Positions 2,844 to 23,928 of a DNA stretch of 64,000 nt are shown here, piece after piece. Source of the DNA: Bacillota bacterium (lineage in GTDB: Bacteria > Bacillota > Sulfobacillia > Sulfobacillales > Sulfobacillaceae); assembly GCA_021841025.1 (NCBI GenBank), contig JAKBWA010000070.1:1-64000 (forward strand), given 5' to 3'. The position numbers and the translations under genes are program-made. Every line of letters begins with the position of its first letter. The first letter of the stretch is position 1. The notes beneath the pieces are model-generated. The model saw only the letters and a list, made by a program, of their open reading frames with translations, had not been told where the DNA came from and ran no database searches.

Positions 2844-3448
2844 GCAGTAAGAAATGGTAGAGGCATAGACTGTAATTTACGGCAATTTGCCTCAAATTGT
2901 GCCGTATAGACGGCATACCGGGCAGAACGGGTGTGTTTACGTAACACGGATCCACACGTGGAGTTCCGTTCCCTTCATCAGCCCATGAACCGATTGAACC
3001 ATCTCCTGTTGGCCGTAATGCCGAGGACAATCGATGCAAGGCCAAATGCGCTGGGGTTTCGGATCGCATGAACTCATCTTCCTTAGGATTTCTCATGGCC
3101 TTATAGACTGAGCTGGTATCTAACAAAGCAACTACCGCGTAAGCATCGCTGCGTCAATCTCATTCCCCTGATTATCCTGGGGACTTTCCAGCATTAATGT
3201 ACCGCGTGGGGAATATTTCTGTAATGGGAATGTTGACTACCGTAGAACGTTTATCACTTACCATGTGGAAGAAATCATTCATGGTATGGTGCAGGCCCCC
3301 AAGAGGGAGTGAGAGCCGCTTTAGAGGGTGAAAATCTAGGTTTTAGAGCCCCCGGATTTATCCGTGGGGAGGTTAAGTGGAAGTGCTGTGGGAGTGGCAC
3401 AAGAAGTGATAAACTATTCTCAGAGTCATGAGAATGAGGGTGCTACAT
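2844..3448. other. Gene-free stretch with probable decayed IS605-type right end
   Basis: No ORF with a ribosome site is convincing here. Short dyads: TGCCGT-ATAG-ACGGCA near 2905-2920 and the palindromic GTGTTTACGTAACAC near 2936. At about 3345-3370 a GC hairpin, CCCCCGGAT-TT-ATCCGTGGGG, follows a run of text (gagagccgctttagaggg and onwards) like the structured right ends next to tnpB genes of IS200/IS605 elements. No tnpB reading frame survives beside it, so this is read as a relic or an orphan end. Confidence 0.3.
3416..3435. promoter_or_regulatory. Dyad operator in front of fur-family gene
   Basis: Perfect 7-bp inverted repeat ATTCTCA-N6-TGAGAAT ending 13 bases before the chosen start of the Fur-family gene. 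The arms resemble Fur/PerR-box halves (TGATAAT/ATTATCA type) but in the outward arrangement. Position between promoter and ribosome site suggests autoregulation; this is inference. Confidence 0.4.
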
Positions 3449-3931
3449 ATGGTCCGCCTATCTTCTATCTACAGGAAGCTGGAGGAAGGGACTAAAAGAT
3501 TGACTCCTCAGCGAGAATTAGTGATCCGAATCTTTGCTGAACATCCTGGAGAGCATTTGTCGGCAGAAGAGGTCCATCAACTTGTTAAGAGCCGTTTTCA
3601 GGATATTGGGTTAGCGACCGTATATCGGTCGCTCGAATTATTAACCGATTTGGATATTCTTACCCGTATCAGTTTTGACGACGGGCGAGCCCGTTACGAA
3701 TTTAACCAGGAGGAAACTCATCACCACCATCATTTGGTTTGTGTAGAATGTGGCCATGTTGACGAGTATGGTGAAGATTTGCTCGATCCCCTGGAAGCCC
3801 GGATCCTTAAAGACCGGGGATTTCACGTGCTGGATCATGAATTGAAATTTTATGGATTGTGTCAGCGTTGTGCGCCTAAACGGAACAAGATTTCTGGACT
3901 GCCGCCTGTGAGAGGAGAGAAGGCTCGGTGA
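3449..3931 (+). CDS. Fur-family metalloregulator
   Basis: Metal-responsive winged-helix repressor of about 160 residues. N-terminal DNA-binding half contains RLTPQRELVIRIF and the recognition-helix segment GLATVYRSLELL; C-terminal dimerisation half has a His-rich metal site HHHHHLVCVECGHV and a second Cys pair LCQRC, i.e. two CxxC structural-zinc motifs as in Fur/PerR/Zur. Start ATG 3449 has GAGGG at 3436-3440; an upstream ATG (3428) lies inside the operator dyad. Whether it senses Fe, Zn or peroxide cannot be told from sequence. Its stop overlaps the GTG start of the next gene, so the redox protein is translationally coupled to it. Confidence 0.93.
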   Translation: MVRLSSIYRKLEEGTKRLTPQRELVIRIFAEHPGEHLSAEEVHQLVKSRFQDIGLATVYRSLELLTDLDILTRISFDDGRARYEFNQEETHHHHHLVCVECGHVDEYGEDLLDPLEARILKDRGFHVLDHELKFYGLCQRCAPKRNKISGLPPVRGEKAR

Positions 3932-4278
3932 CAACCGTGTTGTATTGTTACAAAAAATGAACGACCTGTGCCAAAGCGCGAGCGTGGCTCCGCACTCACG
4001 GGATTGATTTTCAAGAACACGATTTGATAGAAGACCCTTTATCACGTTCTGAGATCGAGGAGTTAGCCGAACAAGTTGGCGGTATCACGAACTTATTATC
4101 GCGAACCAGTCCTTCTTACCGGAAACTTAAGGACAGTGTGCGCTCAGATGAAGAGTGGCTTGATCATATGGTGGCCGAACCCCGGCTGATTAAACGGCCG
4201 ATTTGGATTATAGGAAGGGATATTGTGGTAGGGTTTTCAGAGCCGTCCTGGCAAGGATTGCGGGAGCATAACCTTTAA
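3928..4278 (+). CDS. ArsC/Spx-like thioredoxin-fold protein with in-frame UGA at catalytic Cys (candidate selenoprotein)
   Basis: Read from GTG 3928 (GAGGAGAG at 3912-3919) the frame encodes a complete 116-residue ArsC/YusI-family protein, except that codon 11 (3958-3960) is TGA. It falls exactly on the first Cys of the family CxxC motif: LYCYKK-[TGA]-TTC-AKARAWL. Downstream the family body is intact, including LIKRPIW and the C-terminal GFSEPSW segment, with no further lesion. Family members are arsenate-reductase-like or Spx-like thiol proteins. Because UxxC for CxxC is the classic selenoprotein substitution and a SECIS-like hairpin follows, selenocysteine is proposed; a nonsense pseudogene is the alternative. 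A TTG at 4024 would give an 84-residue protein lacking the redox motif, which makes little sense. Confidence 0.7.
3976..3993 (+). promoter_or_regulatory. Candidate bacterial SECIS hairpin
   Basis: Within the coding region just after the UGA: GCG (3976-3978), bulged C, GAGC (3980-3983), loop GTG (3984-3986), GCTC (3987-3990), CGC (3991-3993). Seven base pairs with one bulge and a loop starting GU. The loop begins 23 bases after the UGA; established bacterial SECIS rules call for an apical loop with G in its first two positions about 16-37 bases downstream. The region also encodes conserved residues, so chance is possible. Confidence 0.45.
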
Positions 4279-4557: not shown

Positions 4558-5388
4558 TTATTCCCTGGGGAACGTGAAATAGTCAAAAACCAGACGGGTC
4601 AATTGGGGAAGCACAATGAATGCCTCCGTATCGACGTGAAAACGCAAGTCCTTAGATTTTTCGCTAAAAACAGCCAGCACGTAATCGCCCCAGGGAGTGG
4701 TTATGATCCCTACATCATTACGGACCCCTTCGAGAGAACCGCTTTTGCTCGCGACACGAACCAAGGGAGGCGCGTCCGTTTCACAAATCAAGTCATAAGG
4801 CAGATTGCGGGTCATAATGGTGTTGTACTGCTGCTGAGTTAAGATATCCCACATGACTTGAGACGCTGGGGGGCTGACCAGGGTACGGTGGTAAATGCGG
4901 GTTAATAACAGGGCCATTTCCTGAGCGGTCGTGAGGCCGATAGGTCCGGGAACACTAAAGTCGATGCGCTTCATCAGTTTTGTCTCAGTGAGGTTGCAAA
5001 GGGCGATAAAGTCGTTGACTGGACCTAGTCCCAGCCAGCGCAAGATCATGTTTGTAGCCGTGTTGTCACTGACAATGATCATGAGGGTGATGACATCCAA
5101 AACGGGTAAAGACAAGCCAGGAGACAAATGCTGCAAAACTCCCGATCCCTCTACGATGTCCTCTCTTTCCAAGTGTAAGGGATGCTCCCAAGAAACATGG
5201 TGATCATGGAGATACTGAAAGGCAGCCGCCATAATTGGCACTTTGACAACAGAGGCTGTTTCCATGACTGCCGAAGGGTCATGTTCCAGGGTATCGTGGC
5301 TTGTCATATGTTCAGCGTACAAGCTCACATGACCGGTAAAACCAGAGGCTATTGTCTCTATTTGCTTGGAAATTTCAGATTTATTCAA
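4558..5388 (-). CDS. Class A beta-lactamase-fold serine hydrolase
   Basis: About 276 residues. Serine-hydrolase motifs of the penicillin-binding/beta-lactamase fold are visible: SVVK (SxxK, around residue 46-49), SDN (around 107-109) and KSG near residue 210. The omega-loop region carries ETKLMKRIDF but the canonical class A Glu context is not obvious, so hydrolysis of beta-lactams is not assured; many such proteins are uncharacterised. No signal peptide is seen with the chosen start. TTG 5388 is preferred because AAGGCGG sits just upstream; the longer TTG at 5442 lacks this. Stands alone between convergent and divergent neighbours. Confidence 0.8.
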   Translation of the reverse strand: MNKSEISKQIETIASGFTGHVSLYAEHMTSHDTLEHDPSAVMETASVVKVPIMAAAFQYLHDHHVSWEHPLHLEREDIVEGSGVLQHLSPGLSLPVLDVITLMIIVSDNTATNMILRWLGLGPVNDFIALCNLTETKLMKRIDFSVPGPIGLTTAQEMALLLTRIYHRTLVSPPASQVMWDILTQQQYNTIMTRNLPYDLICETDAPPLVRVASKSGSLEGVRNDVGIITTPWGDYVLAVFSEKSKDLRFHVDTEAFIVLPQLTRLVFDYFTFPRE

Positions 5389-5664
5389 TGGTTCACCGCC
5401 TTGTGTATTTGCGAAAGTGCCGAGGAGAACCTGAGCGGGCAAAACGGTTTTTCTCAGTCCAGTTCTCCAAGCAACGCGCCTTAGGTCCTGCCGGGTTTAG
5501 ATTCTCGGTGATGATTCTTTGAAATCCGGTAGCCGTAGGCACTAAGATGCCGGCAGGCCTAAGAGGTTAATGACGATATTTTGTTGATCAGACAATCCAC
5601 ATGAATCTCGTGTCAAAAGCCGTTAGACATTTGTTTTATCCCAACCCTATGACTCCAACAAATT

Positions 5665-22773: not shown

Positions 22774-23928
22774 GTGAACACGGCGCACATATCTGATGAG
22801 GACTGGGGATTCGGCACACAAGCCATCCATCAGTCGAGGTCGTCTTTAGACCAATCGCGATCGGTGACGATGCCGATCTATCAAACCAGTACATACACAA
22901 GGGATCTAGACGGCAATGCCCTGCAATATGAGTACGCGCGTGGTGATTCGCCCAATCGCGAAGCCTTGGAAGATACGCTGGCATCATTAGAGCACGGTCT
23001 ATTTGCGGTCGTATTTGGATCGGGAATGGCGGCATGCGACGCAATTTTACGCCGCCTCCACCCCGGTGAACATATTTTAGCGGGTCACGATCTATATGGA
23101 GGAGTGTACCGGTTATTTGAGACGGTGTACCGTCCCCAGGGATATGGTATTGACTATTGTGATTTTGACAGCAACGGAACATGGACCGAGAAAATTCGGC
23201 CGCAAACCCGTGTAGTCTGGTTAGAAACTCCCACGAATCCCTTGCTCCAAGTGAGTGATATAGAAAAAGTGGCCCAAGAAGCCCATCGTCATCAACTCAC
23301 CGTCGTCATCGACAATACGTTTGCTTCCCCTTATCTGCAAAATCCTTTGAGCCTGGGCGCCGATTTGGTAGTCCATTCCATGACCAAGTATATTGCTGGG
23401 CATTCTGACGTGATAGGAGGAGCTGTGATCGGCAATGATCCCAGTTGGCATGATCACTTGACATTTCTGCGTAATGCCGCCGGACCCACTTTGGGGCCTT
23501 TTGATGCTTGGTTGATTCTTAGAGGTCTGAAGACTTTGGCTTTAAGGATGGAACAGCATTGCCGCAATGCTGAACAACTGGTGGAATTCCTTGGTAATCA
23601 TGCGCGGGTTGGAGAAGTCTATTATCCCTCGACGCATCCGGTGAGCCATAAGCAGATGCGCCGAGGAGGCGGCATGATAGCGTTCGTACTCAGAGGAGGA
23701 ACGGTCGAAGAGGTTTATGAGGTGTTGCGGAACTTGCGGTTGTTTCAGGTAGCCGAAAGTTTGGGCGGAGTCGAATCCTTGGTGAGCCATCCTGCAACCA
23801 TGACTCATAGCGCAGTGCCGGAAAAGGAGCGAAATCGCAGGGGGATTGTTCCGGGGCTTATCAGGCTATCTGTGGGCATTGAGGAGGCCAGAGATTTGAT
23901 TCAGGATTGGGATAACGCCCTGTCTTAA
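22774..23928 (+). CDS. Cystathionine gamma-synthase/lyase-family PLP enzyme
   Basis: 384 residues, Cys/Met-metabolism PLP family. Markers: TQAIHQSRSSLDQ, PIYQTSTY, YEYARGDSPNREALE, FGSGMAA, HDLYGGVYRLFE, LETPTNPLL, DNTFASPYLQNPL (PLP Asp), VHSMTKYIAGHSDVIGG (PLP-Lys in SMTKY), GGVESLVSHPATMTH. Either cystathionine gamma-synthase, O-acetylhomoserine-type or gamma-lyase; sequence alone does not separate them. GTG start with GAAAGAGG upstream. No SAM riboswitch or T-box was seen. Confidence 0.92.
   Translation: MNTAHISDEDWGFGTQAIHQSRSSLDQSRSVTMPIYQTSTYTRDLDGNALQYEYARGDSPNREALEDTLASLEHGLFAVVFGSGMAACDAILRRLHPGEHILAGHDLYGGVYRLFETVYRPQGYGIDYCDFDSNGTWTEKIRPQTRVVWLETPTNPLLQVSDIEKVAQEAHRHQLTVVIDNTFASPYLQNPLSLGADLVVHSMTKYIAGHSDVIGGAVIGNDPSWHDHLTFLRNAAGPTLGPFDAWLILRGLKTLALRMEQHCRNAEQLVEFLGNHARVGEVYYPSTHPVSHKQMRRGGGMIAFVLRGGTVEEVYEVLRNLRLFQVAESLGGVESLVSHPATMTHSAVPEKERNRRGIVPGLIRLSVGIEEARDLIQDWDNALS

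Follow-up and report, generated by a model that had tools for sequence, protein, structure and literature searches.

A fur-linked gene of the ArsC/Spx superfamily in Sulfobacillales is very probably a selenoprotein gene with an in-frame UGA

The apparently broken gene that overlaps the end of fur in the draft genome of an acidophilic, Sulfobacillus-type member of the Sulfobacillaceae is, with high probability, an intact selenoprotein gene, in which UGA codon 11 inserts selenocysteine (Sec) in a small redox protein of ArsC/Spx type. The gene was studied in a window of 64,000 nucleotides (contig JAKBWA010000070.1 of assembly GCA_021841025.1, here G000). Judged by sequence comparison, the overlapping arrangement of fur and the UGA-containing gene is kept across a bacterial order. 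The finding adds a well-supported selenoprotein subfamily, which is cut at its UGA by standard gene finding and missed by the curated model of ArsC selenoproteins. This subfamily is retained throughout an order whose members are mostly acidophilic, all orthologues examined having Sec and none cysteine, and is tied to fur, so that a role of selenium chemistry in the control of iron and oxidative stress becomes testable.

The interrupted frame and its conservation

Translation with TGA read as U gave VTTVLYCYKKUTTCAKARAWL...HNL, with a single in-frame TGA at codon 11 (Table 1). For profile scoring C was substituted for U, and the read-through protein matched both the ArsC family PF03960 (47.8 bits, cut-off 24) and the NCBIfam Spx/MgsR family TIGR01617 (90.7 bits, cut-off 75.05), confirming the first-pass annotation of a TGA that interrupts an ArsC/Spx-like frame at the catalytic cysteine. 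The GTG start, good ribosome-binding site and stop-start overlap with fur that had been described there were also recovered. The best NCBIfam match of the upstream gene was the Fur of Bacillus type (176.6 bits, under the cut-off of 220). Because their coding sequences overlap, fur and the Sec gene probably share one mRNA and a common control. No sigma-70-type promoter or convincing terminator was found around the pair, and the two terminator-like matches near it sit inside the gene, at chance level. When the window was scanned for further read-through selenoproteins, this gene was the only credible one by motif context alone.

Table 1. Features of the fur/Sec gene pair in the window, and genes for Sec-like tRNA-Cys(GCA) in relatives
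Feature	Position	Strand	Remarks
fur, Fur-family regulator	3428..3931	+	Pfam FUR, 129.9 bits; upstream, overlapping member of the pair
AGGAG ribosome-binding site of the Sec gene	3913..3917	+	read from sequence; 10 nt 5' of GTG
ArsC/Spx/YffB-type selenoprotein gene (very probable)	3928..4278	+	GTG start, TAA stop (4276-4278), 116 aa including Sec11
Start-stop overlap	3928..3931	+	GTG start 3928-3930, fur stop TGA 3929-3931
In-frame UGA, read as selenocysteine (residue 11)	3958..3960	+	at the position of Spx Cys10 / ArsC Cys12 (alignment to Spx)
SECIS-like hairpin	3976..3993	+	7 base pairs, one bulged C, GUG loop 3984-3986; predicted by folding
Sec-like tRNA-Cys(GCA) genes	L197:1927-2019; L203-L211, L213		in relatives G001, G003, G004, G005, G011, G014, G017, G022, G027, G029, G035

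A search with the read-through protein through 61 genomes of the same genus, family, order and class gave a match in 40 of them. Each match below 1e-13 within the order (n=36, the window's own included) contained exactly one in-frame stop, always TGA. Outside the order two matches fell below this value, one with TGA (G048) and one without a stop (G043); weaker matches within the order (E 1e-5 to 1e-3) had no stop and resemble distant paralogues. The TGA stood at the identical alignment column in all 30 order loci that were fetched, with a conserved strand before it and a conserved helix after it, and no cysteine version was found among these homologues. They belong to many genera, were independently sequenced, share 41-79% protein identity with the window's protein and carry no other lesions. 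Both the earlier observation that the frame shows no decay downstream of the TGA and the expectation that a true Sec codon would recur in relatives are thereby upheld, since the TGA recurs in relatives both near and far and no Cys codon turned up in close strains.

The same column holds TGA in four near-complete genomes of one to three contigs, complete chromosomes among them (G003, G004, G005 and G011), and draft-assembly error is therefore no general cause of it. The chromosome of Sulfobacillus thermotolerans Kr1 carries the gene at about 507570-507902. The idea that UGA has been reassigned in general was rejected, as fur and several orthologues end on TGA; five orthologues (L032, L035, L039, L047 and L049) have one UGA that is translated and, at their end, a normal TGA that terminates, which makes the recoding context-dependent. 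Directly upstream of the Sec gene, fur was found in 28 of the 30 order loci. No fur was found close to the Sec homologues from outside the order, so the linkage is a feature of the order; a distant fur-like match, on the other strand, was seen near one of 64 Cys homologues.

Reading of the UGA codon

The UGA is followed by a hairpin (-9.3 kcal/mol in the window, 16-33 nt behind the UGA, with the GUG loop 23 nt after it) that has the shape of a bacterial SECIS, is missing from Cys homologues and is a putative target of SelB. Behind each UGA the hairpin begins at position 19, counting from U. Its four inner pairs are formed in 33-34 of 34 Sulfobacillus-group sequences and its GUG loop is invariant, a conservation partly forced by the protein (Ala-Trp-Leu), for which reason three controls were applied. 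Among 31 sequences, including distant Sec homologues, 29 double-sided compensatory changes were counted against 9.1 in shuffles (0/500 reached 29), and 83.9% of stem cells were paired against 27-48% for slid versions; both numbers lean towards the stem, as this set was hand-picked, the stem was drawn from the same sequences, and a few Sec homologues with the hairpin in another register (e.g. L117 and L175) were left out. The second control involved no hand selection and compared stability with that of synonymous recodings, giving a mean z of -1.47 for 34 Sulfobacillus-group genes and -2.06 for 23 other Sec genes; the third applied this comparison to 64 Cys homologues and gave -0.30. The corresponding Mann-Whitney p values, 4.5e-6 for the Sulfobacillus group and 1.4e-7 for the other Sec genes, should be read as underestimates of uncertain size, since related sequences are non-independent. 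Taken alone, the window's own hairpin is modestly better than chance (z -1.49, p 0.117), and the case for a SECIS thus rests on the whole sequence set.

The machinery for Sec insertion is partly present in the draft of G000 (118 contigs, 97% complete), which encodes SelA (539 bits) and SelD (362 bits; L016:1501-2460, minus strand, at G000:C20:22752-23687). The SelD is itself UGA-encoded, with the UGA at its classical place (GUGCK). SelB and an intact tRNA-Sec were searched for in this draft and not found, so that the sel gene search suggested in the first-pass annotation succeeded for selA and selD. Among the 61 genomes searched, SelB is present in 47 and tRNA-Sec in 45, both occur in nearly all close relatives and in near-complete ones, and the tRNA-Sec of relatives have UCA anticodons. 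The true UCA-type tRNA-Sec gene of the close relative G002 stands at L199:6981-7076, and the alignment of contig C22 of G000 with L199 stops at base 7061 of L199, where C22 itself ends (at its base 23646). This point is 16 nt inside the gene, and the last 16 bases of C22, GGGAGTAGTTGGGGGC, are the start of tRNA-Sec. From the 20 kb around selB of G002, only the first 1 kb was found in G000, besides tRNA-like or short weak matches. The secD gene, a neighbour of selB in G004 as judged by eye, is missing from the G000 draft too, where only weak transporter-like matches were obtained. Since a contig ends within tRNA-Sec and secD is likewise missing, the absence of SelB and tRNA-Sec from the draft is best explained by assembly gaps; for this very strain, a SelB and a full tRNA-Sec are predicted from the relatives and the truncated tRNA-Sec gene.

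Two members of the same family (G010 and G019, genus g4; 96-97% complete) are without SelB, tRNA-Sec and the Sec gene, which looks as if the entire Sec trait had been lost, with no change to a Cys form. Use of Sec in Sulfobacillus has been described for formate dehydrogenase (PMC4378227) and for the peroxiredoxin PrxU (PMC7409299). In the proposed mechanism, SelB would deliver Sec-tRNA(UCA) to codon 11, guided by the hairpin behind it, and translation would then run on to the TAA codon.

A different decoding, in which UGA is recoded as cysteine via SelB by a Sec-tRNA-like tRNA-Cys (selC*/tRNA-ReC type), either always or when selenium is scarce, is very improbable. Such tRNAs have been described in Firmicutes (PMC7609411), and a tRNA-Cys(GCA) with an 8-bp acceptor stem, a long variable arm and U73 accompanies a true tRNA-Sec(UCA) in 11 relatives (Table 1). 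No tRNA of this type was detected, however, in G000 or its two nearest relatives, G002 and G006, and as all three keep the UGA, it is unnecessary for the Sec reading; SelA and SelD in G000 and the true tRNA-Sec(UCA) in G002 also argue against cysteine. That codon 11 reflects a nonsense mutation, a pseudogene or a sequencing error is hardly credible: table 11 does list TGA as a stop, and the genome is a draft in which SelB and an intact tRNA-Sec were not found, but the TGA shared by 30/30 homologues, all otherwise intact, and the lack of a Cys codon in close strains refute it, bearing out the earlier judgement that a random nonsense mutation is less likely than Sec. Equally remote is translation from downstream of the TGA (e.g. 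from TTG at 4024), which would give the 84-aa protein of the mechanical ORF list, without the active site; the stretch leading up to and surrounding the TGA is no less conserved than the rest, and the short form would lack two elements of the fold, its first strand and the helix with the active site.

Fold and possible function of the probable Sec protein

An AlphaFold model based on 19 homologues reached a pLDDT of 95. Foldseek ranked Spx first, with several of the top matches in complex with alpha-CTD, and VIA-align gave Z scores of 17.6 for YffB, 16.8 for Spx and 13.8 for E. coli ArsC, YffB and Spx being tied. Sequence profiles placed Spx first among solved structures. We infer a small product with a thioredoxin fold, belonging to the ArsC/Spx/YffB superfamily and using a selenol as its nucleophile. 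The residue three places past U is Cys, Ser or Ala among the orthologues, with Ser or Ala in many; the UxxC motif of the first-pass annotation therefore describes the window protein and only part of its family, the other orthologues being UxxS or UxxA.

Fold and motif point, with moderate confidence, to a reductase or repair enzyme that is thiol/selenol-dependent and works under iron or oxidative stress. Such a selenol reductase is favoured over a strict Spx-type switch because the residue paired with Sec varies and the protein is shorter than Spx. Sec11 would attack an oxidised substrate, forming a selenenylsulfide, which would be resolved by Cys14 in UxxC forms and by an external thiol in UxxS and UxxA orthologues.

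A Sec-containing Spx-like regulator, binding the alpha-CTD of RNA polymerase and acting with Fur through a Sec11-Cys14 redox switch, is the chief competitor of the reductase reading and is fairly unlikely. The leading Spx matches in solved structures and in Foldseek, several of them with alpha-CTD, the membership in the Spx/MgsR family and the strict co-location with fur are consistent with it. Against it, the two-residue switch is not conserved in the many orthologues with Ser or Ala, the C-terminal tail of Spx is missing (131 aa in Spx, 116 here), and YffB fits the fold equally well. It is doubtful, then, that an Spx-type Sec sensor couples a selenol/selenenylsulfide signal to iron regulation together with Fur; if it did, selenium supply, peroxide and iron status would converge on transcription in acidophiles.

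A Sec-dependent arsenate reductase is improbable. The ArsC-family fold, with Sec at the position of the ArsC catalytic Cys, would suit this function, and Sec-containing proteins resembling arsenate reductase have been described (PMC1088965). S. thermotolerans grows on arsenopyrite with no arsC identified (PMC7409299); strain Kr1, reported to be without arsC in that work, does carry the ArsC-superfamily Sec gene. The score under the arsenate reductase model TIGR00014 is nevertheless 43.4, far from the cut-off of 106.05, the gene adjoins fur and not ars genes, and the protein is more similar to Spx/YffB than to the ArsC of E. coli.

Relation to known families and wider distribution

Selenoproteins of the ArsC family as a kind, which reviews also list, are already known (PMC1088965, a Sargasso Sea study, and PMC13188914). 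The Sec arsenate reductases of marine bacteria reported there belong to the same superfamily and likewise use Sec as nucleophile, but they are listed, with UxxS, under TIGR00014, whose cut-off the window protein does not reach. The NCBIfam model NF041106 (ArsC_rel_Se_1) also shares with the window protein the ArsC superfamily, Sec at the catalytic Cys and UxxC. The window protein scored 35.8 bits against its cut-off of 85, none of 10 other Sec homologues tested passed, and the window gene further differs in its linkage to fur and in having orthologues that are often UxxS or UxxA.

The likeness to Spx/MgsR is closer, with about 30% identity to Spx, the same fold and a TIGR01617 score above the cut-off, just under which several orthologues fall (71-73 bits). 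The protein differs from Spx in having Sec for Cys10, a shorter C-terminus and a second Cys that is not conserved among its orthologues. YffB (PA3664, 1rw1) is the best structural match (over 111 residues), with 30% identity, but carries Cys. YffB is not known to be fur-linked.

The novelty is thus the subfamily, nearest to Spx/YffB and under the NF041106 cut-off, together with its fur linkage. No description of Spx-type or Sulfobacillus ArsC selenoproteins was found in the literature searched, which covered only a minority of subscription papers, and none of the texts found on ArsC-like selenoproteins mentions a Sulfobacillus ArsC or fur. The earlier statement that a Sec redox protein beside a Fur-family regulator is undescribed accordingly stands for the pairing, while ArsC-family selenoproteins are not new in kind.

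The wider family was surveyed in the best 80 loci of a contig search and in 398 genomes of the phylum. Sec forms with U at the same place also occur in Chloroflexota and other Bacillota, beside many Cys forms. In a quick tree a branch with support 94 set the Sulfobacillus-group Sec proteins apart, with Chloroflexota Sec forms and one Cys form as neighbours (support 90); the alignment is short and does not resolve the deeper forks. UGA-containing ArsC/Spx-like genes were seen in L106, L111, L117, L118, L125, L126, L134, L137, L147, L150 and L162, mostly Chloroflexota by title, and, from other Bacillota, in L169-L172, L174, L175, L177, L180, L188-L190 and L192. The UGA genes of these two groups are not fur-linked, most are followed by a hairpin, and those tested score under the NF041106 cut-off.

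On the 3' side of the Sec gene in the window, a beta-lactamase-like gene is encoded on the opposite strand (4558-5442, minus strand), and a gene resembling it stands one gene further on in the S. thermotolerans genome G005 (L215:8994-9830, minus strand).
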